Assembly: GCF_005405125.1 (NCBI RefSeq)
Contig: NZ_BJDL01000027.1
Span: forward strand, 1 to 60,215
From: Lactiplantibacillus songbeiensis
GTDB taxonomy: Bacteria; Bacillota; Bacilli; Lactobacillales; Lactobacillaceae
Direction of reading: 5' to 3'
DNA: 60,215 nucleotides
Part shown: one piece after another, positions 1 to 60,215 of the stretch
How positions within the stretch are numbered: position 1 is the first letter of the stretch
Layout of the letters: each line of letters begins with the position of its first letter
Position numbers and translations under genes: made by a program
The notes under the pieces: generated by a model
What the model was told of the DNA's origin: nothing
The model's database searches: none
What the model saw: only the letters and a program-made list of their open reading frames with translations

Positions 1-71
1 GAACGACTTATCACCAGTAGTGTTCGAACAACAAACTGTTAAATTATAAGTTCCAACTTTTGGGGTACGCC

Positions 72-368
72 TCAAGCGCGGTCTTCAAAACTGGCCTTGG
101 CCTAAAGTCCGAGCAGACCACTCGCACTAAAGCCAACGACACGGCTGAGCATTTTAGGAACCAACCTCTCGGCTAAATTAATGGTCGACAATAGATACAC
201 TAATTCACGTTAATTAACACCGGGCGGACCAAAATCGGCTCAGTGGTGTCGTTTATCTTGGTCGGTGATTTGCCGACTTAGATAACCCCCGGCTTGTGGA
301 GGACCGCACTTAGCTTCCAAACGCGGCCAACACGTTCCAGCCGATTCTGGGCTAACCACAGAGCAAAT
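72..368 (+). repeat. Element A copy 1, left end missing, abutting a toxin gene
   Basis: This is a member of the ~394-bp A family (best copy 17178-17571). It starts inside the left arm (loop remnant GCGGTCTTCAAAA) and runs through the right arm to the GCCGATTCTGG strand of its outer stem. The left terminal repeat is absent. The right end merges into the reading frame of a truncated toxin gene at about 361-370. Bases 1-71 hold no recognisable gene. Confidence 0.85.
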
Positions 369-555
369 TGTTGAAGGACTACAACTATCGTCTTTACGAT
401 TACGGTCAATACCTGAACGTATATTTTTTGCAACGTTAGATCATAATCGAATCATATTATTACACCACTATACTAAGCGACAAAATAAAACTGACTATCG
501 AGAAATTGAAAAATTCCTCAATAATTTTGAAGACTGGCTAAACCGAAAGGAATGA
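361..555 (+). pseudogene. Truncated HigB/RelE-like toxin (C-terminal part)
   Basis: The frame from about 361 to the TGA at 553-555 encodes roughly 64 residues. It includes RIFFATLDHNRIILLHHYTK and then REIEKFLNNFEDWL, which is the pattern of the C-terminal half of phage-derived Gp49/HigB toxins (hydrophobic strand, then a K-rich HxxxK region, then a REIE helix). No start codon or N-terminal half is present, because upstream sequence is element A copy 1. An XRE-type antitoxin follows directly, the usual higBA order. I infer that the toxin is inactivated by insertion or rearrangement at the element. An alternative is a short functional peptide started from an internal codon, but no ribosome binding site supports that. 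Confidence 0.6.
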
Positions 556-1882: not shown

Positions 1883-2082
1883 TACTTGGTATTAGTTAAG
1901 CTTGCCGCCTACCGGTAATTAACGCCGGGCGGGCCAGAATTGGATCAGTGGTGTCGTTTATCTTAGTCGTGGGTTTCGGCTTAGATAAAGCCCGGCTTTC
2001 GAGACCGCCCTGTGGCTCGAAAACGCGGCCACCACGTTCCAGCCGACTCTGGGCCAACCAGAGTGACAACTTAATCCAACTA
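1883..2082 (+). repeat. Element A copy 2, left arm deleted
   Basis: It keeps the left terminus (TACTTGGTATTAGTTAAG), loses nearly all of the left arm and keeps a complete right arm (GGGCCAGAATTGG to CCGACTCTGGGCC). The right terminus is cut after AATCCAAC. It lies between the small-protein promoter and the PTS terminator. Confidence 0.9.
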
Positions 2083-2131: not shown

Positions 2132-4141
2132 TTATTCCGCTGCCCCGATAATATCACCGGCGGCAACCGTCTTAGTTTGGTTCATTTCAAAATGATCAAC
2201 TTGATCCATGTTCGTAATAACCACCATCATCGTTGTGGCTTTACCTGCCGCTTTGATGGCATCCAGATCAACCGTGGCAACTGCACTACCAGCAGCAATC
2301 TGATCACCAGTTTCTACGTGCAAATCAAATGGCGTCCCGTTCATTTCAACCGTGTTAATCCCCATATGGAGCAAGATTTCTAACCCTGAGGCCGTCTTCA
2401 GACCAAGTGCATGCTTGGTTGGGAAGATGCTGGTCACTTCACCACTCACTGGTGCGACCACTTCATTATTGGTTGGTTCAACCGCAAAGCCATCCCCCAA
2501 CAGCTTTTGGGCAAACGTCTCATCGGCGACGTCACTAATTGGCATTAAGGTACCAGTCGCTGGTGCATGCAAGATCGTTGTTTTGGCAACAGTCGCGACA
2601 CTTGGTTGTTCAACCGTTGCTGTGGTGTCAGCTGATTCAGTCCCACCAGCGCCAGCTAAAGCTAACTCTGGTTGTGGTGTTGCACTCACACGACCATCGT
2701 CTAATTGTTGTAAGGCTTCGGCCACGAATTGCACTTCCGTCCCAATCACAATATGAATGTTATGCACATCCAAGATATTTAATCCGGGAACGCCCGCTGC
2801 TTTAACCGCCGCTTGATCCACTTTACCGGTATCTTTTAATTGTAACCGTAAACGCGTCGTACAATTGTTGATGACACTAATATTATCGTGCCCGCCAATC
2901 GCCGCATAGATGCGTTTGGCTTGCTTCATATACTTATCATCACCATCAGCTGTCGCCACCGCGGGCGCGTCTTCAGCCGGTTCCGCAAGCGGTTCGCGAC
3001 CCGGCGTTTTTAAATCAAACTTTTTAATAGCAAAATCAAATCCAAAGTAATAAATACCGGCCATGACAACCCCTTGCACGATCAACATGTAAGGCTGGTT
3101 GGCTAATGGCATCCGGAAACTTAACAAATAATCGACTAAACCACCACTAAATGAGAAGCTCGCTGTCCAGTGCATCAAGGCCGCAAAGCCCAATGATAAG
3201 CCCATGAAAACAGCATGCAACACGTATAATGGCCAAGCAACAAACATAAATGAGAATTCCAAGGGTTCAGTGACGCCAGTAAAGAATGAGGCAAAGGCCC
3301 CGGCCAGCATCAACGACCCCGTTTCTTTTTTACGTTCTGGTAGCGCATTACGATAAATCGCATAGGCCCCCGCGGGTAATCCGAACATCATAATTGGGAA
3401 GAAGCCGGCTTCATACATCCCGGTAACCCCTTTGATCCCCTTGCTGGCCCAGAAGTTCCCAATATCATTAATCCCAGCGACATTGAACCAGAACACTGAA
3501 TTCAATGCATGATGTAATCCAGTTGGAATCAATAACCGGTTGAAGAAGCCATATAACCCGGCCCCAACAAAGCCTAACTTTGAAATACTTGTGGCAAATA
3601 ATACGATGGCATCATAGAAGAATGGCCAAACAAAATACATCACCGCGGTAACAATCAACATGACAAATGCCGCTAAAATTGGCACTAAGCGTTTCCCACT
3701 AAAGAAGGACAACGCCATCGGTAATTTTACTTCATGGAACTTATTGTAAAGTGCCGCCGCAATCAAGCCGGCTGCAATCCCAAATAAAACATTGTTATTG
3801 ATTTGTCTAAACGCTGGCTGAGCAGCACTGGCATTAATCGCCAGCAAGTTCGCCAACCCATTGGTTCCAGTTGGCTTTAACATTGATACAGGTACTAAGT
3901 AAGCGACAACCCCGGCAATCGCTGCCGCCCCATCCTTATTCGTTGACATGCCGACCGCTAAGCCGACCGCAAATAATAAAGCTAAATTATTTAAAACGAC
4001 GTCACCGCCGTTAATTAAAAATCGTGATAAAATCCAAGCCTTTGGTAAATAGTTACCAATCCCGACTAGAATTGCTGCGGCGGGTAACGTCGCAATCGGC
4101 AACATTAACGATTGCCCAATCCGTTGAAAATATGTCTTCAT
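2132..4141 (-). CDS. nagE: PTS N-acetylglucosamine/glucose-type EIICBA permease
   Basis: 669 residues, the full length for a fused EIICBA. The order is a membrane EIIC domain (about 1-375, with the sugar-site segment GVTEPLEF), EIIB around 405-490 with phospho-cysteine Cys427 in INNCTTRLRL, and EIIA around 525-669 with phospho-histidine His592 in ILLHMGINTV and partner His577. The family takes up and phosphorylates GlcNAc or glucose using phosphate from HPr. It is a single-gene unit with its own terminator. Upstream are a cre-like and a NagR-like site, favouring N-acetylglucosamine as substrate; glucose transport cannot be excluded. Confidence 0.9.
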   Translation of the reverse strand: MKTYFQRIGQSLMLPIATLPAAAILVGIGNYLPKAWILSRFLINGGDVVLNNLALLFAVGLAVGMSTNKDGAAAIAGVVAYLVPVSMLKPTGTNGLANLLAINASAAQPAFRQINNNVLFGIAAGLIAAALYNKFHEVKLPMALSFFSGKRLVPILAAFVMLIVTAVMYFVWPFFYDAIVLFATSISKLGFVGAGLYGFFNRLLIPTGLHHALNSVFWFNVAGINDIGNFWASKGIKGVTGMYEAGFFPIMMFGLPAGAYAIYRNALPERKKETGSLMLAGAFASFFTGVTEPLEFSFMFVAWPLYVLHAVFMGLSLGFAALMHWTASFSFSGGLVDYLLSFRMPLANQPYMLIVQGVVMAGIYYFGFDFAIKKFDLKTPGREPLAEPAEDAPAVATADGDDKYMKQAKRIYAAIGGHDNISVINNCTTRLRLQLKDTGKVDQAAVKAAGVPGLNILDVHNIHIVIGTEVQFVAEALQQLDDGRVSATPQPELALAGAGGTESADTTATVEQPSVATVAKTTILHAPATGTLMPISDVADETFAQKLLGDGFAVEPTNNEVVAPVSGEVTSIFPTKHALGLKTASGLEILLHMGINTVEMNGTPFDLHVETGDQIAAGSAVATVDLDAIKAAGKATTMMVVITNMDQVDHFEMNQTKTVAAGDIIGAAE

Positions 4142-4390: not shown

Positions 4391-4774
4391 CACTTGGTGC
4401 TAGTTAAAATTTCCGCCTGCCGGTTGGCTCCTAAAACGCTGGAACGCCATGGGCCATTTTGAAGCAAAGTGCGGTCTTCAAAACTGGCCTTGGCCTAAGC
4501 CCGAGCAGAACACTCGCACTAAGGCCAACGACACGACTGAGCATTTTAGGAACCAACCTCTCGGCTAGATCTGTGGCCGACAATGAATAGTCATTAATTC
4601 CCGTTAATTAACGGCGGGCGGCCTAGAATTGGCTCAGTGGTGTCGTTTATCTTAGTCGGTGACTTTCCGACTTAGATAAAGCCCGGCTTGGAAGACCGCG
4701 CTTTGGCTTCCAAACGTGGCCACCACGTTCCAGCCGATTCTGGGCCAACCAGAGTGGCAATTTAGCACCAAACA
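4391..4774 (+). repeat. Element A copy 3, nearly complete
   Basis: Both arms are present. The left terminus is CACTTGGTGCTAGTT and the right end TTTAGCACCAAACA lacks about 9 bases of the usual terminal repeat. Hairpin 2 of the right arm is TTGGAAG/CTTCCAA instead of the common TTTCGAG/CTCGAAA, a compensatory change. It lies directly downstream of the orphan T-box terminator. Confidence 0.95.
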
Positions 4775-10356: not shown

Positions 10357-10388
10357 CTCAGTTTCCATTCTTTTATTATCGACATTAA

Positions 10389-10700
10389 TTTAGCTGCCCG
10401 AACTGACCTTGACCTAAATTCGAGAAGCACACTCGCACTAAAGCCAACTACATGGCTGAGCATTTTAGCAACAACTGCTCGGCTAAATGACTGAACTGAA
10501 AATAATTAATCATTATTTTTTAATATCCGTTATTAGTTAACGTTGAGCGAGTCAGCATTGGCTCAGTGGTGTCGTTTATCTTGGTCGGTGTTTTTCCGAC
10601 TTAGATAACCCTCGACTTTTGAGACCGCACTATAGCTCGAAAACGTGGTCACCACGCTCCAGCCGATTCTGACCCAACCAGAGTGGCAAATTTAATCCGT
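10389..10700 (+). repeat. Element A copy 4, degenerate left part
   Basis: The left terminus and first hairpin are lost; the rest of the left arm is diverged (GCTGAGCATTTTAGCAACAA). The right arm is complete with stem GAGTCAGCATTGG / CCGATTCTGACCC. It lies between the divergent met and trpX-like promoters. Confidence 0.85.
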
Positions 10701-16390: not shown

Positions 16391-17149
16391 TCATCCTTTC
16401 TGGTCTTTATCCGGCGCTGTTTTGCGACTTTGCCGAATAAAATGAATGATTAACGTGATTACCACAGCCCCTAAAACAATTAAACCAAAGGCCACCGCAG
16501 GAATTTCAATATCAATTGCCGGAATTGATAGGAATAGTTTAAGCGCAATGATGGCAATTAAGCAATAGGCCATCGTCTCTAGTTCAGGGATCTTTTGCAT
16601 CAAGCGCATGATGATTTCAGCGATTCCACGCATGGCCGCAATCCCAATCATTCCACCGATTAACACAATCACTGGATTCTTCGAAATCGCCAACGACGCT
16701 AACACTGAGTCAATTGAGAAGACGATATCCATTAACTCAATCTGAACCACGACTGACCAAAACTGACTCATGCCCAAAAAGCGGCGTTGTTTTTTCGGCT
16801 TAGCCGTCGTCTGCTTTTTTTTCGTAAAGAATTGATAAACTAAATAAATTAAATAACCAGCGCCTAAAATCTTGATTTCCCAGAAGCCGATCAGATAGGT
16901 CCCAATCCCGATCACAATGAAGCGGAAGATATAAGCCCCCCACAACCCGTAAAACAATGATTTTTCTTGATCCTTCACAGAATCCAAGCTTTGGGTCTGA
17001 GCGGCTAGGACGACAGCATTATCCACGGACAACAAGCACTCAATCAGGGCCAATGATAAGATAATAATCCAATCATCAGGGGTGGTGATAATCTGACGCC
17101 AATTTTCAAGGCTGAAAAATGGCGCGTACAGTTGTTCAATAAAACGCAT
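16391..17149 (-). CDS. TerC family integral membrane protein
   Basis: 252 residues from ATG 17149, with AAGGGAG upstream; the longer frame to 17344 reads through element A copy 6 and is not real. About seven membrane helices with the family acidic motifs: LIECLLSVDNAVVLA and ELMDIVFSIDSVLAS. TerC proteins are implicated in tellurite resistance and, in Bacillus, in manganese export to exoenzymes and the cytosol boundary. A Mn2+-linked role is inference. First gene of a two-gene unit with the hydroxyacid dehydrogenase. Confidence 0.88.
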   Translation of the reverse strand: MRFIEQLYAPFFSLENWRQIITTPDDWIIILSLALIECLLSVDNAVVLAAQTQSLDSVKDQEKSLFYGLWGAYIFRFIVIGIGTYLIGFWEIKILGAGYLIYLVYQFFTKKKQTTAKPKKQRRFLGMSQFWSVVVQIELMDIVFSIDSVLASLAISKNPVIVLIGGMIGIAAMRGIAEIIMRLMQKIPELETMAYCLIAIIALKLFLSIPAIDIEIPAVAFGLIVLGAVVITLIIHFIRQSRKTAPDKDQKG

Positions 17150-17177
17150 CCTGACGTGCTCCCTTCTACTTATTTCA

Positions 17178-17571
17178 CGCTTGGTGCTAGTTGAAATTGC
17201 CGCCTGCCGGTTGGTTCCTAAAACGCTGGAACGCCATGGGCCATTTTGAAGCCAAAGCCCGGTCTTCAAAACTGGCCTTGGCCTAAGTCCGAGAAAACCA
17301 CTCACACTAAGGCCAACGACACGGCTGAGCATTTTAGGAACCAACCTCTCGGCTAAATTTGTGGTCGATAATAAATAATCATTATTCCCTGTTAATTAAC
17401 GCCGGGCGAGCCAGAATTGGCTCAGTGGTGTCGTTTATCTTAGTCGGTGATTTTCCGACCTAGATAAAGCCCGGCTTTCGAGACCGCACTTTGGCTCGAA
17501 AACGTGGCCACCACGTTCCAGCCGATTCTGGCCCAACCAGAGTGGCAATTTAAACTAACTAGCACCAAGTG
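17178..17571 (+). mobile_element. Element A copy 6: complete, with 11-bp target duplication
   Basis: 394 bp. Terminal inverted repeats CGCTTGGTGCTAGTT and AACTAGCACCAAGTG (14/15). It is flanked by identical direct repeats TACTTATTTCA at 17167-17177 and 17572-17582, as left by transposition. The left arm has outer stem GGTTCCTAAAACGCT / AGCATTTTAGGAACC; the right arm GGCGAGCCAGAATTGGCT / AGCCGATTCTGGCCC. It has no coding capacity of its own, so it would need a transposase from elsewhere. Confidence 0.95.
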
Positions 17572-17679
17572 TACTTATTTCATATAATTTTAATTATACG
17601 CCTTGTGAGAAAAATATCTAACTTGAGTTATCACAACCCCTAATGATCTAAATCTTAGCCAATTTACCGCTTAACACAT

Positions 17680-23439: not shown

Positions 23440-24098
23440 AATTGCGAGACTTCCTTTTCTGCATTGGCATTCACGACGGCGGCCAGTTGATCGACTAATG
23501 AGAAGATAGCGGTTTGATGTTGCTTGAGCGCTAGTCGATTGACAACTAACCGCGTAGAAACTGGTTGTAGATAATCATAAATCTGTAAGTGGTTCTCCCG
23601 AATCGTCGTACCGGTTTCAGTGATATCAACGATGGCATCCGCTAAACCGGTTAACGGTGCCAATTCTACCGACCCTTCAATCTTGATAATCTCCACGTCT
23701 TGGCCCAACCGGTCAAAGTAACGTTTCGTGATTAACGGATATTTGGTCCCAATAATCTTACGTTGTGGGGCTTGTGGGTCAAAATCGGCAGTCGAGGCTA
23801 AGACGAATTGACATTGGCCGACCCCTAAATCTAATAATTCATATTGCGTACTTTGATGTTCAACCAGAATGTCACTGCCGACAATACCGATATCGGCAGC
23901 GCCCCGTTCGAGAAACGTCGTCACATCCGGGCCTTTTGCGAGGATGAATTCATACGGTTGGGTGGTGGAATCAAAGATCAACCGCCGTTGCTTATGCCGT
24001 ACTAACGAACAATCAACCCCGGCTTGTTCTAATAAGGGTAAGACCTGCGTCTCAACCCGACCTTTCGTTAAAGCGATTTTTAATCGTGAGTCACTCAT
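23436..24098 (-). CDS. hisG: ATP phosphoribosyltransferase, short form
   Basis: 220 residues, the short HisG lacking the C-terminal regulatory domain. LTKGRVETQVLPLLEQAG, GAADIGIVGSDIL and the PRPP-binding DIVDITETGTTIRENHL are seen. Short HisG needs HisZ to form the active, histidine-inhibited hetero-octamer; hisZ overlaps it by 8 bp. Confidence 0.95.
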   Translation of the reverse strand: MSDSRLKIALTKGRVETQVLPLLEQAGVDCSLVRHKQRRLIFDSTTQPYEFILAKGPDVTTFLERGAADIGIVGSDILVEHQSTQYELLDLGVGQCQFVLASTADFDPQAPQRKIIGTKYPLITKRYFDRLGQDVEIIKIEGSVELAPLTGLADAIVDITETGTTIRENHLQIYDYLQPVSTRLVVNRLALKQHQTAIFSLVDQLAAVVNANAEKEVSQL

Positions 24099-25242
24099 CT
24101 AAGTCACCTTCCGTCAAATCAATCAAAGTGGCACCCATCTGTGCGGCTTCTTGCTTTGCAGCCGCCACGTTATCCGCTAAACTCAAACTAGCCTGCTGGT
24201 ATTTCAACAACAACTGTTCCGCTTGTGACCATTGCGCTGGTTGAAAGTAAATCAACTGGCGCGGGGTCGGTACGGCCTGTTTGAGCGCTAATTCAGTCAA
24301 CAAGTCCAGGTCTAAGCCCATCCCCACTGCTGGTTCACTATTAGCTTGAAAGTTCGCCAGTAACTGGTCATAACGTCCCCCGCTGAATAAGTACCCAGCG
24401 CCGGCTTGCGAATAGCCACGAAAAGTCAGGCCAGTATAATACTTCTGTGGTGCTTGGCTACTAAGATCAATCGAAACTGCTTGTTCAGGCATCGTGGTTT
24501 GCATCCAACGCACCACCGTCTTCAACCGGGCAACCGCACCGTCCACAATGGTGGGTAAGGACGCGGTCGCCAATTGCTTAAAAATTGTCGCTGGATCACC
24601 AAACAACCGTGGCCATTGTTGTAAGAATGGATATAAGGCTTGATCTTGGTACGCCGCAATTAATGCTTCATATCGTGGGACTTGCTTATTGAACAACGCT
24701 TGTTTGATTGCTGTTTGTTCAGCGGGATCAGCCGTCAAGGTCGCCACGACTTGCGGTACAAATTGCGCATCCCCGAGTTCAATCTCAACGGCATCATCGA
24801 TCAGTTCAGCGCTGAGTTGATTGGCAATCGCTAAACATTCCAACTCTGCTTTTAATGACGGATACCCAATCAGTTCGACACCCGCTTGGGTCATTTGGTT
24901 ATAAGACCCCGACAAACGACGACTCACCCGAAAGATATCGCCAACGTAACTAAACTTTTGCGGTAATGGGATTTTCGTGGCGCTCAAGAAGCGGGCTATC
25001 GGCAACGTCATATCTGGCCGCAACACTAAGGTCTGGCCTTCCGGATCTAACAACCGATACAATTGGGTGTTGCCCATTTGGTACGGATCAAAGACCGCTT
25101 GATTCTCTAATAACGGCGTTGCTATCGGCGCTAACCCGCGTTGCTTAAAATGGGCTTGGATCACCGAAATTAATTGTTGCTTCGTGGCAGCCCGTCGTCC
25201 GAACTCATCACGCGTACCGAGTGGTAAAAGATTACTTAACAT
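24091..25242 (-). CDS. hisZ: ATP phosphoribosyltransferase regulatory subunit (HisRS-like)
   Basis: 383 residues from ATG 25242, 8 bases after AGGAGG; a TTG two codons earlier is too close to the site. Class II tRNA-synthetase-like fold with motif 2 VGDIFRVSRRLSGSYNQMTQ and LFSGGRYDQLL, but no anticodon-binding domain as in true HisS. It activates short HisG and senses histidine. First gene of the operon behind a T-box. Confidence 0.93.
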   Translation of the reverse strand: MLSNLLPLGTRDEFGRRAATKQQLISVIQAHFKQRGLAPIATPLLENQAVFDPYQMGNTQLYRLLDPEGQTLVLRPDMTLPIARFLSATKIPLPQKFSYVGDIFRVSRRLSGSYNQMTQAGVELIGYPSLKAELECLAIANQLSAELIDDAVEIELGDAQFVPQVVATLTADPAEQTAIKQALFNKQVPRYEALIAAYQDQALYPFLQQWPRLFGDPATIFKQLATASLPTIVDGAVARLKTVVRWMQTTMPEQAVSIDLSSQAPQKYYTGLTFRGYSQAGAGYLFSGGRYDQLLANFQANSEPAVGMGLDLDLLTELALKQAVPTPRQLIYFQPAQWSQAEQLLLKYQQASLSLADNVAAAKQEAAQMGATLIDLTEGDLDE

Positions 25243-25283
25243 TGCCAACGCCTCCTTAACGTTTTTTGATCATTGATTTTAAT

Positions 25284-25572
25284 AAAAAAACGCCCTTCTA
25301 GCAAAATTGCTAAAAGGACGTTTTGAACGTGGTTCCACCTTAATTCGTTGCCAGCTCACACTGGTAACCTCATGTTGACAAAAAGTCAACGTGGCTAACG
25401 ATGCCATTCGACTAAGGCTAATAAGACTGGTTCACCTTAGCAGTTCATAGATGTGGGTTCATTAATAATGTCTGCCCGGTTCGCAGCTACCCGGACTCTC
25501 TGGATGAGGAAATTATTAACTACTTTTTCTAATCACAACCGTTTATTAAAATTTGATTAGTTATTTAATTTA
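25284..25572 (-). ncRNA. Histidine T-box leader
   Basis: Minus strand: stem I base AGTAGTT / AACTGCT with CCCACATC just inside, giving candidate specifier CAC (His); T-box AAGGTGGAACCACG; terminator ACGTCCTTTTAGCAA / TTGCTAGAAGGGCGT with seven T. Uncharged tRNA-His should cause readthrough into hisZGDBHAFIEC. Specificity rests on CAC and on the operon. Confidence 0.92.
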
Positions 25573-26541: not shown

Positions 26542-26834
26542 TGCTTGGTGCTAGTTGGCTTAAATTGCCACTCTGGTTGGGCCAGAATCGGCTGGAACGT
26601 GGTGGCCGCGTTTTCGAGCCATAATGCGGTCTCGAAAGCCGGGCTTTATCTAAGTCGGAAAATCACCGACTAAGATAAACGACACCACTGAGCCAATTCT
26701 GGCCCGCCCGCCGTTAATTAACGATGATTGAAAAATTAACGATTGATTATTTCAGTTCGGTTATTTAGCCAGCTGTGGTGTTCCAGCGCTTTAGGAACCA
26801 ACCGGCACACGGCAATTTCAACTAACATTAAACG
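26542..26834 (-). repeat. Element A copy 7, reverse orientation, internal deletion
   Basis: Complete right arm (GGGCCAGAATCGGCTGG ... to GAATTGGCCC strand) and both termini, but most of the left arm is missing, leaving GTGTTCCAGCGCTTTAGG. Flanks AAAAAAAAGGT and TAAAAAAAGTA may be a decayed target duplication (8/11), though low complexity weakens this. Confidence 0.9.
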
Positions 26835-26837
26835 TAA

Positions 26838-26894
26838 AAAAAGTATCAGTACAATCTGAGGCTTGTTCACTCAAATCACCCTGATACTTTTTTA
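26838..26894. terminator. Hairpin between two A elements
   Basis: AAAAAGTATCAG / CTGATACTTTTT with a ~31-base loop containing a second GAG-CTC pairing. No gene ends next to it on either strand. Confidence 0.55.
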
Positions 26895-26935
26895 AGTTTT
26901 AACATCTAACATTTTAAAGTTGCATTAGCGCAGGT

Positions 26936-27095
26936 CGGGCTGGATGACGCTCAGTGGTGTCGTTTGACTTAGATTGGGCGATTTTCCCGATCTTAGTCAA
27001 AGCCCGGCTTGTGAGACCGCACTTCGGCTCACAAACGTGGCCACCACGTTCCAGCGTCAATCCAGACCAACCAAAGCGGCAGATTCAATCCAACC
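26936..27095 (+). repeat. Element A copy 8, solitary right-type arm
   Basis: One arm with no left arm and no left terminus. Its outer stem GGTCGGGCTGGATGACGC / GCGTCAATCCAGACC and hairpin 1 TGACTTAGAT / ATCTTAGTCA differ from other copies yet still pair, while the loops (GACCGCACTTCGGC) stay. It ends 4 bp before the deacetylase stop codon (27099), forming that gene's 3' region. Confidence 0.9.
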
Positions 27096-29756: not shown

Positions 29757-30125
29757 CGTTTGATGCTAGTTAAACTTGCCGCCTGCCGGTTGGTTGCTAA
29801 AACGCTGGAACGCTATGGGTCATTTTGAAGCCAAAGCCCGTTCTTCAAAACCGACCTTGGCCTAAGCCCAACGATACGGCTGAGCATTTTAGCAACCAAC
29901 CTCCCGGCTAAACTGGCAGCTTGAACTGCTTATAACTGATCACCTGATTAACGTCGGGCGGGCCAGCATTGGCTCAGTGGTGTCGTTTGACTTAGTTGAG
30001 TGGTCTGCTCAGCTTAGTCAAAGCCCGGCTTATGAGACCGCTCTTCGGCTCATAACCGCGGCCACCACGTTCCAGCCGATGCTGGCCCAACCAGAGTGGC
30101 AACTTAACCCAACTAGCACTAAACG
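29757..30125 (+). repeat. Element A copy 9, both arms
   Basis: Terminal repeats CGTTTGATGCTAGTT and AACTAGCACTAAACG. Right-arm stem GGGCCAGCATTGGC / GCCGATGCTGGCCC has the paired change CAGCAT/ATGCTG; hairpin 2 is TTATGAG / CTCATAA. Left arm shortened by ~20 bp. It lies between divergent genes (pga operon and VanZ gene). Confidence 0.95.
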
Positions 30126-34190: not shown

Positions 34191-34354
34191 CACTTGGTAC
34201 TAGTTGGTTTAACTTGTCACTCTGATTGGGCCAGCATCGGCTGAAACGTGGTAGCCGCGTTTTCGAACACCTCAACTTTGACTTCAAAATGGCCATGGCG
34301 TTCCAGCGTTTTAGGAACCAACCGGCAGGCGGCAATCTCAACTAGCACCAAGCG
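34191..34354 (-). repeat. Element A copy 10, reverse orientation, fused arms
   Basis: Both termini are present (CACTTGGTACTAGTT and AACTAGCACCAAGCG) but a deletion joins the two arms between their hairpin-2 loops (CGTTTTCGAACACC then TTTGACTTCAAAATGG). The rest of the 34014-34574 gap shows only AT-rich sequence leading to the next gene. Confidence 0.9.
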
Positions 34355-39998: not shown

Positions 39999-40359
39999 CG
40001 CTTAGTATTAATTAAAATTGGTGCCTACCGGTTGGCTTCTAAAATGCCATGGAATACTTTAAGTCTGGCCTTTAAACCTGACCTTAACCTAAGTCCCAAA
40101 AAAGCCCACTCGAATTTAGACCAATAACATGGCTAAAGCTATTCATTACAATGCATTAACGTTAATCTATAAAATACCAATTAATTAACGGCGGGCGGCC
40201 CAAAATTGGCTCAGTGGTGTCGTTTATCTTAGTCGTGATTTTGCGACTTAGATAAAGCCCGGCTTGTGAGACCGCTCTCCGGCTCACAAACGCGGCCACC
40301 ACGTTCTAGCCGATTCTGGGCCAACCAGAGTGGCTATCTAATCCAACTAACACTATACG
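39999..40359 (+). repeat. Element A copy 11, degenerate left arm
   Basis: Termini CGCTTAGTATTAATT and AACTAACACTATACG. The left arm is heavily mutated (TTCTAAAATGCCATGGAATAC); the right arm is intact with hairpin 2 TTGTGAG / CTCACAA. It ends 17 bp before the stop codon of the minus-strand 188-aa gene, which has no other terminator. Confidence 0.88.
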
Positions 40360-42898: not shown

Positions 42899-43058
42899 TT
42901 AACGCCAAGCGGGCCAGAATCGGCTCAGTGGTATCGTTTACCTTAGTCGTGGACTTGCGACTTAGATAAAGCCCAGTTTTCGAGACTACTCTTCGGCTCG
43001 AAAACGGGACCAACACGTTCCCACCAATTCTGGTCAAACCAAAGTGGCAATATTTAGT
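42899..43058 (+). repeat. Element A copy 12, right arm only
   Basis: Solitary arm, diverged: stem CGGGCCAGAATCGGC / CCAATTCTGG, hairpin 1 ACCTTAGTCG / CGACTTAG, hairpin 2 TTTTCGAG / CTCGAAAA. Left arm and terminal repeats absent. The rest of the 42722-43203 gap holds the ltaS-like promoter region (TGT-TAAAAT near 43137). Confidence 0.85.
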
Positions 43059-45409: not shown

Positions 45410-45804
45410 CGCTCGGTGCTAATTGACTTAAATTGTCACTCTGGTTGGACCAAAATCGGCTGGAACGTGGTGGCCACGTTTTCGAGCCAAAGTACGGTCT
45501 CGAAAGCCGGGCTTTATCTAAGCCGGAAAGTCACCGACCAAGATAAACGACACCACTGAGCCGATTCTGGCCCGCCCGGCGTTAATTAACGGAAATTAAT
45601 GAGGCTCTATTGTCGACCACAAATTTAGCCGAGAGGTTGGTTTCTAAAAATGCTCAGCCGTGTCGTTGGCCTTAGTGTAAGTGGTCTGCTCAGACTTAGG
45701 CCAAGGCCAATTTTGAAGACCGCACTTTGGCTTCAAAATGGCCCATGGCGTTCCAGCGTTTTAAAAACCAACCGGCAGGCGGAAACTTCAACTAGCATCA
45801 AGCG
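45410..45804 (-). mobile_element. Element A copy 13: complete, reverse orientation, with direct repeats
   Basis: 395 bp, both arms complete. Termini CGCTCGGTGCTAATT and AACTAGCATCAAGCG. Flanks TATTGTGTA (45401-45409) and TATTGTGTT (45805-45813) are a near-perfect target duplication. Reading frames inside it are shadows. Confidence 0.95.
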
Positions 45805-47530: not shown

Positions 47531-47924
47531 TGTTTAGTGTTAGTTGAACTTGCCGCCTACCGGTTGGTTCCTAAAACGCTGGAACGCCATGGGCCATTTT
47601 GAAGCCAAAGTGCTGTCTTCAAAACTAGCCTTGGCCTAAGTCCGAGCAAACCACTCGTACTAAGACCAACGACATGACTGAGCATTTTAGGAACCAACGG
47701 CTCGGCTAAATTTATGGTCGATAATAAATAATCATTGATTCCTGTTAATCAACGCCGGGCGGGCCAGAATCGGCTCAGTGGTGTCGTTTATCTTGGTCGG
47801 TGACTTTCCGACTTAGATAAAGCCCGGCTTTTGAGACCGCACTTTGGCTCGAAAACGTGGCCACCACGTTCCAGCCGATTCTGGCCCAACCAGAGTGGCA
47901 ATTTAAGCCAACTAGCACTAAGCG
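47531..47924 (+). mobile_element. Element A copy 14: complete, with 11-bp direct repeats
   Basis: 394 bp, same length as copy 6. Termini TGTTTAGTGTTAGTT and AACTAGCACTAAGCG. Flanks TAATGGAACTA (47520-47530) and TAATGAAACTA (47925-47935) match at 10 of 11 bases, an aged target duplication. Confidence 0.95.
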
Positions 47925-50646: not shown

Positions 50647-50774
50647 TGCCCCTTATATTTGCCAGCTTACCGAATAAACCGTCCCAATATCACCGAGTTG
50701 TACACTGGCGGTATGATTTGGTTGCCGAGTTAGGAGTAACTCAGTATGAATTGAATTGATTGGAGGGATTTTCG

Positions 50775-53399
50775 ATGCACAAATTTTGGCATTTTCTATT
50801 GTTAGCGGTCGCCGGCTTGGCATTAATGGTCTTTAGTCCCCCATTATTAGGCCAAGCTAAAGTCATCACGACTGCGACTGGGACTGATGCCGATAGCGCT
50901 ACCATTACTAATGATGCTGGTGAAGTTATGTCACATACCGCTGACCTCTCATCTGAGGAACTTTACCGGGTTGATTTTAATTGGACGATACCCGATTCAA
51001 CCCGAGTTAAATCAGGTGATGTCATGTATCTGACACTCCCAAGCAATATTTATAATGATTCCGATATCGATGTTGCGATCAAAGCATCCACGGGATCCGT
51101 GATGGGCCGGCTTAAATTGGCTACCGGCGCTTACACAGCAACGTTGACTTTTAACAATTATCTAGCCAGCCATAATCTCAATAAACGTGGTCGTATTTGG
51201 TTTAAGTTCCCCGGTGCCAGCAAACCTGGCGAACCAGAACCGACACCCGAGCCCACGCCAAGTGGCCCAATTGCGATGACGAAAACGGCGGCTTGGAGTA
51301 GTCCCGACGACTATTCCAAGATTAATTGGAATTTGATTGTGTCTGGTAATGGCAACAAGTTAGTCGATCCGGTAATTACCGATACCTTAAGCATTGGTCA
51401 AAAGTACGTGTTAAATAGCGCTCACGCAACCGATGAGACTGGTAAAACCATTCCAGTCACCTCAACGAGTTCGATTAAACCCGATGCGGATGGCACCCAT
51501 AATGTCACCTTCAGGCTTGCCGGCACCTATGAGACTAATATTCACTTAACCTATCAAACCGAAACTGTCGATCAGACGACGAAATCAACGATTTACCATA
51601 ACTCGGCGGTTTATACCGACAGTAATGGTAACCACGCCGATGCCACCGCGGATGTCGACAAACCAGATACTGAGGTTCCAGAAGAACCCAATGAACCGGA
51701 GCCAGAACCCACTCACGAGCCCATTTCAATGACCAAAACGGCTGCTTGGAGTGATCCTAGTAACCCATCCACGATCAATTGGGGCTTGGAAGTTAAGAAT
51801 AACGGCAACGAGCTCGTTAATCCCGTCTTCACGGACCTTCTAAGCCCTGATCAGTATTACTGGGCCAATAGTGCGAAAGCCACCGATCCAGCCGGTGAGT
51901 CGATTCCGGTCTTGTCATCGACTCGACCAGAAAATGACGGGAATACACTGCTGATATTCAAGTTACACGGTACCTTCTCGTCTAACCTCGCCTTAACCTA
52001 TCAGACTTTGTTGAAGCAACCCAATCCAGGCGAACTTTATCAAAACAAAGCCAATTATCACGATGATGCCGATAATGACGCCAATGCAACCGCGGAAATT
52101 GAAGCACCCGATGAAGAAGACGATCAGGAACCGGAAGAACCTAGCCAGCCAGAACCGACTAAGCCAATCAGTATGACGAAAACGGCTGCTTGGGTCAATC
52201 CAGATGACAAATCGCAAATTCTCTGGACATTACAAGTCACTAGCAACGGTAACAAGCTGGTTAAGCCAACCATTACCGATACCTTAAGCGCTAACCACAC
52301 TTATATTCCAGACAGCGTCTCAGTCACCGCGAATGGCACCACCATTCCAACAACTGCTTCAGTCGCCGGCAACCAGGTCACCTTCAAGATTAATGAGACC
52401 GTTGATGCTGACCTAACGATTACCTATCAGACGAAAGCAGCCGCAAGTAACGTCGCTGAAGTTTACCAAAATGATGCCGTCTTCGAAGATGAGGATGGCC
52501 ATCACGCGGAAGCAACCGACGATATTATTTTGACTCCTGACGAAACTGAAGAACCGGAAAATCCTGGTACCGAAGAACCAGAAAATCCTGGCACCGAGGA
52601 ACCCGAAAATCCTGGTACCGAAGAACCAGAAAAGCCTGGCACTGAAGAACCGGAAAATCCTGGCACCGAGGAACCGGAAAATCCTGGCACCGAAGAACCG
52701 GAAAAACCTGGCACCGAAGAACCAGAAAAACCTGGCACCGAAGAACCAGAAAAACCTGGCACTGAAGAACCAGAAAAACCTGGCACTGAGGAACCAGAAA
52801 AACCTGGCACCGAAGAACCAGAAAAACCTGGCACTGAAGAACCAGAAAAGCCCGGCACTGAAGAACCGGAAAAACCCGGAACTGAGGAACCAGAAAAGCC
52901 TGGGACTCAAGAACCAGAATTTCCAGATGAAGATGACGAACATCCAACCGTTACTGAACCTGAAAAACCAAGTACGCCAGCACCTGGCACCCCTGGTGAA
53001 ACCGGCGAAACTGAAAAGCCAGTCAAACCAAGCCAGCCGGAACCAGCGCCAAACAAGCCAGCTACTGAAAAACCAACAATCAGCGTGCCTGGAACCAGCG
53101 CCACCGGTCAGACAAGCACACCAACAACTAGTGGCACCCCTTATCAACCGCATACCACGGCTCCTAGTGCCACCACGCCAACAACACAATCCACAACCGG
53201 CATGATTGCCACCGCACCAAGTACAACACCGACCCCAGCGGCACCAACCACTGGCACCCCGGCGACAACTCGTCCAGCGTCAACCTTGCCACAAACTAAC
53301 GAGCAACACCATGCTTTGGCCAGCTTATTAGCCATCCTTGGATTAGTCTTAATTCTCATTGGTAGCCACTGGTTAAGTCATCGCTCACGGAAAATTTAG
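50775..53399 (+). CDS. LPXTG cell-wall-anchored surface protein with repeats
   Basis: 874 residues from ATG 50775 (GGAGGG upstream). Signal peptide (LLLAVAGLALMVFSPPLL), an N-terminal adhesion-like domain, three tandem ~130-residue domains each opening MTKTAAW and holding NGNxLVxPxxTD and YQ(T/N) strands (about 170-290, 320-445, 460-590), an acidic-proline stalk of 15 octapeptides, a Pro/Thr spacer and the sorting signal LPQTN, hydrophobic helix and RSRKI tail. The domains look like isopeptide- or Ig-type beta domains (DUF11-like). Sortase would attach it to peptidoglycan. The ligand is unknown. Confidence 0.9.
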   Translation: MHKFWHFLLLAVAGLALMVFSPPLLGQAKVITTATGTDADSATITNDAGEVMSHTADLSSEELYRVDFNWTIPDSTRVKSGDVMYLTLPSNIYNDSDIDVAIKASTGSVMGRLKLATGAYTATLTFNNYLASHNLNKRGRIWFKFPGASKPGEPEPTPEPTPSGPIAMTKTAAWSSPDDYSKINWNLIVSGNGNKLVDPVITDTLSIGQKYVLNSAHATDETGKTIPVTSTSSIKPDADGTHNVTFRLAGTYETNIHLTYQTETVDQTTKSTIYHNSAVYTDSNGNHADATADVDKPDTEVPEEPNEPEPEPTHEPISMTKTAAWSDPSNPSTINWGLEVKNNGNELVNPVFTDLLSPDQYYWANSAKATDPAGESIPVLSSTRPENDGNTLLIFKLHGTFSSNLALTYQTLLKQPNPGELYQNKANYHDDADNDANATAEIEAPDEEDDQEPEEPSQPEPTKPISMTKTAAWVNPDDKSQILWTLQVTSNGNKLVKPTITDTLSANHTYIPDSVSVTANGTTIPTTASVAGNQVTFKINETVDADLTITYQTKAAASNVAEVYQNDAVFEDEDGHHAEATDDIILTPDETEEPENPGTEEPENPGTEEPENPGTEEPEKPGTEEPENPGTEEPENPGTEEPEKPGTEEPEKPGTEEPEKPGTEEPEKPGTEEPEKPGTEEPEKPGTEEPEKPGTEEPEKPGTEEPEKPGTQEPEFPDEDDEHPTVTEPEKPSTPAPGTPGETGETEKPVKPSQPEPAPNKPATEKPTISVPGTSATGQTSTPTTSGTPYQPHTTAPSATTPTTQSTTGMIATAPSTTPTPAAPTTGTPATTRPASTLPQTNEQHHALASLLAILGLVLILIGSHWLSHRSRKI
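52548..52907 (+). repeat. 15 tandem 24-bp repeats coding EEPE(N/K)PGT
   Basis: Fifteen in-frame copies of a 24-bp unit coding for the octapeptide EEPEKPGT or EEPENPGT. They form a rigid, negatively charged wall-spanning stalk. Silent differences between units cluster, consistent with recent unequal copying of the EEPEKPGT type. Copy number is expected to vary between strains. Confidence 0.95.
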
Positions 53400-55431: not shown

Positions 55432-55479
55432 ATCAAACGTTTACAATTAATGTATTAACATTATTTGTAAACGTTTGAT
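55432..55479. promoter_or_regulatory. Paired LacI/CcpA-type operators as a 22-bp inverted repeat
   Basis: ATCAAACGTTTACAATTAAT at 55432 and its inverse ending TTTGTAAACGTTTGAT at 55479 pair at 21 of 22 positions around a 4-base centre. Each half holds TTGTAAACGTTTGAT, one mismatch from cre and similar to RbsR-type boxes. It lies upstream of the nucleoside hydrolase and overlaps the left end of element A copy 16. Confidence 0.6.
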
Positions 55480-55608
55480 GCTAGTTAAAATTTCCGCCTA
55501 CCGGCTAGATTTACTGATTAATCATGCATAACTGTTAATTTACAATATCAAGTTGTTAACGATTCTGGCCCAACCAGAGTGGCAAGTTAATCCAACTAAC
55601 ACCAAACG
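55472..55608 (+). repeat. Element A copy 16, both arms deleted
   Basis: Termini CGTTTGATGCTAGTT and AACTAACACCAAACG remain with ~107 bp between them; only the last stem strand of the right arm (ACGATTCTGGCCCAACC) survives. Its left end contributes half of one operator of the next gene. Confidence 0.88.
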
Positions 55609-56697: not shown

Positions 56698-57020
56698 CGC
56701 TTGGTGCTGGTTGAAATTGCCGCCTGCCGGTTGGTTCCTAAAACGCTGAAACGCCATGGGCCAACGACACAGCTGAGCATTTTAGGAACCGACCGCTCAG
56801 CTAAATTTGTGGTCGACAATAAATAGTCATTAATTCCCGTTAATTAACGCCGGGCGGGCCAGAATGGGCTCAGTGGTGTCGTTTGACTTAGCCGGTGGCT
56901 TTTCCGGGTTAGTCAAAGCCCGGCTTGGAAGACCGCCCTTTGGCTTCCAAACGCGGCCACCACGTTCCAGCCGATTCTGGCCCAACTAGAGTGACAATTT
57001 AATCCAACCAGCACCAAGCG
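56698..57020 (+). repeat. Element A copy 17, left arm shortened
   Basis: Termini CGCTTGGTGCTGGTT and AACCAGCACCAAGCG differ from the usual CTAG/CTAG in a matching way (CTGG / CCAG), so the terminal repeats covary. A deletion removes the hairpins of the left arm; the right arm is complete with TTGGAAG / CTTCCAA. Flanks TATTGTGCATA and TATTATTCAAA match 8/11. Confidence 0.92.
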
Positions 57021-60091: not shown

Positions 60092-60215
60092 CGCTTGGTG
60101 CTAGTTGAAATTGTCGCCTGCCGGTTGGTTCCTAAAACGCTGGAACGCCATGGGCCATTTTGAAGCCAAAGGGCGGTCTTCAAAATTGGCCTTGGCCTAA
60201 GTCCGAGCAGACCAC
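60092..60215 (+). repeat. Element A copy 18, cut by the window end
   Basis: Starts CGCTTGGTGCTAGTT and runs through the first strand and two hairpins of a left arm (GGTTCCTAAAACGCTGG, GAAGCCAAAGGGCGGTC) to the window edge. Confidence 0.95.

Follow-up and report, generated by a model that had tools for sequence, protein, structure and literature searches.

The described repeats that lie closest to the element reported here are the modular repeats of streptococci, the MITEs and, as analogues, ERIC and Correia elements. BOX elements of Streptococcus are modular intergenic repeats that occur in many copies, are predicted to fold when transcribed and have ends like those of insertion sequences (PMC3049150); the main text of that paper contains no word beginning with "covar" (PMC3049150). 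The same text presents ERIC and Correia elements as structured repeats that are apparently cut when transcribed, by RNase E for ERIC and by RNase III for Correia (PMC3049150). MITEs are characterized in a review by the lack of a coding gene, terminal inverted repeats (TIR), target duplications, a stable fold and an intergenic location (PMC10969869), and words beginning with "Lactobacill" are absent from its main text (PMC10969869).

Here we analyzed an element at positions 17178-17571 of a window of 60,215 nt (the whole stretch of DNA under study), and compared it with further copies in the source genome, the genus and the family. It is a real and abundant structured mobile element of Lactobacillaceae, and no Rfam family matched it in the stretches searched. 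The Rfam search that a first-pass annotation of the window had proposed returned no family: Rfam 15 had no family that reached gathering level on the element (the best, with E 2.3, fell far short of its cut-off) and no match in ten loci fetched for relatives. A search of the open-access literature, with subscription journals and preprints outside its scope, found no description of the family.

Borders and insertion of the focal element

The element consists of two back-to-back arms, which are diverged copies of one module of about 150 nt. Arms were detected with R1, a covariance model built from 12 diverse arms. The focal locus is composed of the following features:

17167..17177, target site duplication, left copy (11 bp; matches 17572-17582 exactly; single in the empty site)
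17178..17571, focal element, whole, 394 bp (empty site in L. dongliensis and TIR ends)
17178..17192, plus strand, left TIR (about 15 bp; common to other copies)
17197..17349, minus strand, left arm, structured module reading outward to the left (R1 155.9 bits, E 3e-38; the arm itself is in the model seed)
17350..17400, AT-rich linker between both R1 matches (about 50 nt; linkers vary among copies)
17401..17548, plus strand, right arm, structured module reading outward to the right (R1 137.7 bits, E 1.4e-33; the arm itself is in the model seed)
17557..17571, minus strand, right TIR (motif search of ends)
17572..17582, target site duplication, right copy (11 bp; single in the L. dongliensis empty site)

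The element starts with CGCTTGGTGCTAGTT and ends with AACTAGCACCAAGCG, which is the reverse complement with small changes, and it is bordered by the 11-bp direct repeat TACTTATTTCA. The orthologous locus of L. dongliensis is without the element; both flanks are there and the 11-bp target is single. This empty site fixes both borders, exactly at the coordinates that the first-pass annotation had given. The copy at 47531-47924 likewise has an unoccupied counterpart in L. dongliensis, and the two repeats of its 11-bp duplication differ by one mismatch; a third site of the source genome, C7:59335, looks empty there as well. Across 27 scored copies, three duplications were perfect (9, 10 and 11 bp) and the rest were imperfect or not evident.

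A twin of the focal element occurs in L. dongliensis (G008:C1, around 3051-3444), with 99% identity across 394 bp. It lies at a different site, with unrelated flanks and its own perfect 10-bp duplication (read from the alignment); therefore, the focal subfamily has moved recently. Target sites of the family are AT-rich, and insertions are biased to intergenic DNA. The only ORF of at least 80 aa that enters the focal element (16391-17344, minus strand, 317 aa) reaches into its left half. With terminal inverted repeats, a target duplication made on insertion and no internal transposase, the element is a non-autonomous DNA transposon, MITE-like by the features tested. Spread by transposition, as previously suggested from the sequence, is supported by the TIR, the 9-11 bp duplications and the two clean empty sites.

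Copies in the window

R1 detected 23 arms in the window at E<0.001, in 14 places, and 28 arms at E<1. The 18 copies counted in the first-pass annotation were thus of the right order, but they were not one kind of thing, as the repeated unit is the arm. Apart from the focal element, the following were found:

1..369, copy with arms 1-169 (minus strand, cut by the contig end) and 219-369 (plus strand); R1 matches
1924..2069, plus strand, solo arm; R1 match
4391..4774, copy with arms 4410-4561 (minus) and 4613-4760 (plus); TIR and R1
10376..10689, copy with degraded left arm (E 0.58) and right arm 10542-10689 (plus); R1
15426 and 50598, eroded right ends; end and repeat searches
26542..27082, copy with a longer middle, arms 26565-26712 (minus) and 26930-27082 (plus); TIR and R1
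29757..30125, copy with arms 29776-29904 (minus) and 29953-30102 (plus); TIR and R1
34191..34354, shortened copy with a single degraded arm 34221-34335 (plus); TIR and R1
40018..40336, copy with degraded left arm and right arm 40190-40336 (plus); R1
42908..43050, plus strand, solo arm; R1 match
45410..45804, copy in the orientation opposite to the L. dongliensis element at about the same place; R1 and alignment
47531..47924, copy whose site is empty in L. dongliensis; R1 and empty-site alignment
55472..55608, short derivative with both ends kept and without recognisable arms (no R1 match at E<1); TIR at 55472 and 55597, repeat D6 copy at 55549-55608
56698..57020, copy with shortened left arm 56717-56797 (minus) and right arm 56849-56997 (plus); TIR and R1
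60092..60215, copy cut by the contig end, arm 60111-60215 (minus); TIR and R1

Two other features of the window were recorded. A tandem repeat with a 24-bp unit (15 copies in register, 52473-52991) lies inside an 879-aa ORF at 50760-53399, and a T-box leader (122 bits) at 25311-25545 on the minus strand lies just upstream of a run of minus-strand ORFs that starts with 24091-25248.

Fold and covariation of the arms

The consensus fold of 12 diverse arms has four helices: an outer stem (P1), an internal loop, P2, and then a three-way junction from which hairpins P3 and P4 extend. The internal loop is asymmetric, with CA on one side and CGTTCC on the other, and the consensus of P2 is GNNGTG/CACNNC. 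The three hairpins per arm that had been proposed earlier were not borne out: the third of them (CGTGG/CCACG) is in competition with both P2 and the P4 base and is without any significant pair, and pair 71-108 at the base of P4 is significant (E 0.000, tree-based test). Stems change freely, and the junctions CTCAG, TCGTT or AAATT, the CTTAG pairs, GAC...GGCT and CGTTCCAGC are largely constant; one of the alignments used for conservation kept 24 of 121 sequences (<80% identity). In a set of 54 right-type arms from a single genome, with a mean difference of 13%, fewer than 10% of the arms deviate at the majority of junction columns. Folding as RNA was much more stable than that of shuffled sequences (z -11.2; 0 of 100 shuffles reached it), and the minus strand of the focal element, when folded as DNA, was also extreme (z -13.1).

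Compensatory changes in the stems, which the first-pass annotation had noted, are real. RNAalifold predicted 46 pairs in the 12 diverse arms, 31 of them with at least one double-sided change, and double-sided cells amounted to 110 as compared to 33.6 +/- 4.5 after shuffling (none of 500 shuffles reached 110). When partner columns were slid by one to three positions, pairing fell from 94.1% to 29.3-51.5%. Covariation beyond phylogeny was assessed with our own R-scape-like script on a sequence-only MAFFT alignment of 57 of 146 filtered sequences (<88% identity), from which the tested structure itself had also been predicted. The null was a simple one, made of 40 null alignments that follow a FastTree tree and keep the change count of each column. 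Against it, 13 of 10,585 column pairs reached E<=0.05, each of them one of the 40 pairs of the structure. They sit in P1, P3 and P4; P2 has none (best pair 26-114, E 0.2). The covariation is therefore real and exceeds that given by phylogeny under this script, so that the refuting outcome named in the first-pass annotation did not arise, and the double-sided changes, the shuffles and the tree-based test support the selection for the fold that had been claimed from the sequence.

The two kinds of mispair bear on which strand folds. On the outward-reading strand of the MAFFT alignment (57 related sequences), G-U outnumbered A-C by 111 to 54, and by 71 to 35 in helix interiors only. G-U exceeded A-C in 35 sequences, with the reverse in 8 and ties in 14. 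Model-fitted alignments, which lean to G-U by construction, gave 205:93, 82:20, and 45:20. One-sided changes between the source genome and L. dongliensis in 11 shared copies, counted by hand, gave 18:7, and the same count with the unlike copy L002 and added loci gave 34:16. Because such an excess would not arise if the fold worked on both strands alike, the outward strand would be the folding one, most simply as RNA. G-T also pairs weakly in DNA; the excess of G-U over A-C is thus support rather than proof that the folding strand is RNA.

Spread through genomes and plasmids

In 460 kb of the source genome, window included, R1 had 114 matches at E<=0.01, of which 91 fell in the 400 kb outside the window. 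These correspond to 89 distinct arms, as one arm was split by the edge of a 20-kb chunk and one match was antisense. Extrapolation to 3.03 Mb gives about 670 arms per genome if the sample is typical; at least 146 arms are present, which equals the largest number of candidates scored per genome in the genus. Matches to R1 were found in at least 19 of the 21 genomes of the genus (source included) and, with up to 20 candidates scored per genome, in at least 39 of 151 genomes of the family, belonging to at least 12 of 40 genera. In a sample of 398 genomes of the class (strict filters, up to seven candidates scored per genome), R1 matched only in the source genome. The pattern matches listed include L. 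dongliensis, L. nangangensis, L. daowaiensis, L. daoliensis, L. pingfangensis, and Levilactobacillus tangyuanensis, and a two-arm profile also matched one stretch in each of the last five.

Divergent arm pairs recur in other Lactiplantibacillus genomes and in other genera. In paired copies of genomes G005 and G019, about 250-505 nt separate the two arms. In G005, an L. plantarum-like genome, the terminal repeat is ATGATTAAAACGTGCC as opposed to CGCTTGGTGCTAG in the source genome, with the arm core conserved, and therefore ends change while arms stay. No target duplication was evident by eye for the G005 copies. Arms of genome G013 (L142, L345-L349) adjoin, on their inner side, a repeated sequence of several hundred bases unlike the linker of the source genome, which is possibly another subfamily. 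In G162, of another genus, a single R1 match (L279 4820-5520) has flanks that match those of a copy in G005, and it adjoins the apparent end of an IS30-type transposase (by eye); judged by these flanks, the segment is probably imported DNA.

The G005 element matched 26 plasmid records (Lactiplantibacillus 19, Ligilactobacillus 7), and R1 had a match in each of five plasmid stretches to which it was applied (L. pentosus, L. plantarum and L. salivarius). The L. plantarum and L. pentosus records have no annotated feature under the element in a gene table that is incomplete. No match was obtained when plasmids were searched with the focal element, nor when phages were searched with the G005 element.

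Copies at the same site in L. dongliensis

Many copies lie at the same place in the source genome and in L. dongliensis. We compared 14 of these shared copies (15 minus L002, whose arms differ by 38%) and found 135 differing sites out of 3858 in the arms, 211 of 2104 in linker plus TIR and 271 of 4323 in the flanks. Arms changed less than linker plus TIR in 12 of the 14 copies (Wilcoxon p 0.009) and less than flanks in 10 (p 0.017). Four copies whose linkers are 109-305 nt long account for this excess of linker plus TIR over arms; among the remaining ten, arms (90/2636) and linker plus TIR (48/1116) showed no difference (p 0.19). With L002 included, arms and flanks did not differ (Fisher p 0.35, Wilcoxon 0.09).

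Pairs were followed in 11 copies taken from 21 shared-site rows, of which flipped, re-inserted, partial and strongly diverged ones were dropped after their divergence had been seen; four loci were added later. In these 11 copies, eight stem pairs have changed on both sides and are still Watson-Crick, 18 pairs differ as Watson-Crick versus G-U, and one as a mispair versus G-U. Eleven pairs are Watson-Crick in the source genome and unpaired in L. dongliensis, and five show the reverse. These comparisons are moderate to weak evidence for retention of the arms once inserted; the selection for the fold stands independently of such in-place constraint.

Some sites have been rearranged. At C1:52463 (C1:52463-52814) the element is flipped between the two species with equal apparent duplication borders, and at C1:33785 a flipped match is also better over part of the length. 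For the copy at 45410-45804, orientation and borders both differ from L. dongliensis, and therefore it looks like a second insertion nearby. Two L. dongliensis sites retain only the ends of the element (by eye).

Gene context and candidate movers

By a crude ORF-based count over 460 kb, 58 of the 191 intergenic gaps that measure 100 bp or more contain an element: 13 of 25 convergent, 33 of 119 tandem, and 12 of 47 divergent gaps. No fixed rule of orientation relative to genes was seen in the three types of gap, and therefore no single regulatory role stands out. A promoter in the linker was considered and rejected, as the one weak promoter-like site is not conserved among copies (by eye).

The 9-11 bp duplications would presumably fit the IS4 group or a similar mover. 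The two DDE_Tnp_1 loci of the source genome had no end motif at up to three mismatches and one match with four. In the sampled DNA of the source genome and L. dongliensis, no transposase was seen by eye within four distinct places with ends 0.8-5 kb apart; this check covered those four and left aside 21 forward-then-forward, 10 unpaired and three longer cases. Two candidate autonomous partners were discarded: C1:58212-60018 encloses an apparent ribose-phosphate pyrophosphokinase gene (by eye), and the two TIRs 2.26 kb apart in G008:C1:20500-25000 belong to two separate copies around a gene. The ORFs of three contexts in low-copy genomes included no transposase unit between arms, and in the five plasmid stretches the element had neighbours, but no transposase enclosed it.

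Discussion

The module behaves like a structured RNA and presumably has a function as such. We consider it fairly probable that the element is a non-autonomous transposon moved in trans, with a cargo that is a fold-selected module acting on host transcripts. A MITE-like element would be mobilized in trans and, because its arms point outward, a read-through transcript of either direction would carry one folding-sense arm near its exit. That arm may act on its own transcript, most likely as a processing, stabilizing or protein-binding site, and such action would make insertions between genes tolerable in any orientation. Against this explanation, stems could also come to covary without selection through templated repair of quasi-palindromes, but such repair would not conserve the junctions. 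Tentatively, we also regard as possible that the arm is a new class of structured RNA, domesticated in Lactobacillaceae, spread as divergent pairs by transposition and working in either direction; the three-way junction and the asymmetric internal loop could, in that case, bind a protein, a ligand or the ribosome, or self-cleave.

A module acting on transcripts has to be weighed against an ordinary MITE, in which the arms would be enlarged ends of a lost insertion sequence, the fold would serve transposition alone (through recognition of the ends or by shielding against read-through), copies would decay after insertion and conservation would mark recently active lineages only. The TIR, the 9-11 bp duplications, the AT-rich targets and the intergenic bias agree with such an element, as do the internal-deletion derivatives that retain only ends and the young twin copy. 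We slightly raised our estimate for it because ten of the 14 shared copies, pooled, had arms not significantly slower than linker plus TIR (p 0.19). Nonetheless we think it rather unlikely, as over all 14 copies the arms change less (lower in 12) and, in the set of 54 arms with a mean difference of 13%, the majority of junction columns are altered in <10% of the arms. In addition, the source genome and G005 have different terminal repeats around a conserved arm core, a pattern opposite to the one expected if a transposase had to recognize the ends.

The extreme folding of the minus strand as DNA (z -13.1), the tolerance of G-T pairs in DNA and the flip at C1:52463 between apparently identical duplication borders, as an inversion would leave, would all suit a fold that works as single-stranded or extruded DNA, for example as a hairpin recognized by a recombinase or a replication protein. 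That version is improbable given that G-U exceeds A-C on one strand, that the element encodes no recombinase and that duplications of 9-11 bp suggest a DDE enzyme that works on duplex DNA by cut and paste. Even less credit can be given to covariation imitated by the kinship of copies and palindromic DNA. It is true that the copies share ancestry and that covariation is rewarded by the program used to choose the structure, but 13 of 13 significant pairs fall inside the structure under a null that keeps per-column change counts, pairing collapses when partners are slid by 1-3 columns (94.1% to 29.3-51.5%) and eight double-sided Watson-Crick changes separate the species in 11 shared copies. Such an artefact is very improbable.

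Paired bases that change together and related modules in other bacteria of the family suggest that transposition has spread a structured RNA that is apparently unrecorded. With arms numbering several hundred per genome (about 670 should the 400-kb sample be typical), many host transcripts would be affected. Provided that the modules act in RNA, they would form a new family of structured RNAs in bacteria of food and gut and a ready-made test of bacterial life with dense intergenic insertion; if they are indeed a new class of RNA, a noticeable share of the intergenic space would carry one bidirectional RNA device.

IS200/IS605-type elements with omega RNA are not known to have a terminal inverted repeat or a target duplication, and this identity was rejected because the element has both. 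With MITEs it shares the gene-less body, TIR, target duplications, stable fold, and intergenic sites listed in the main text of the review (PMC10969869). It differs from them in a TIR that varies between the source genome and G005 with the inner module conserved, and in that its covariation was tested; a parent insertion sequence was not found in the sampled DNA or at the two DDE_Tnp_1 loci. Like the BOX elements as described in the main text, it is a modular, intergenic, multi-copy, fold-forming repeat with transposon-type ends (PMC3049150). The described architecture sets the two apart: BOX elements follow boxA-boxB(n)-boxC with tandem inner modules, whereas our element is formed by two divergent copies of one module (PMC3049150). 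ERIC and Correia elements, which belong to different hosts and are likened here by their description only, would be the analogues that work most like it (PMC3049150).
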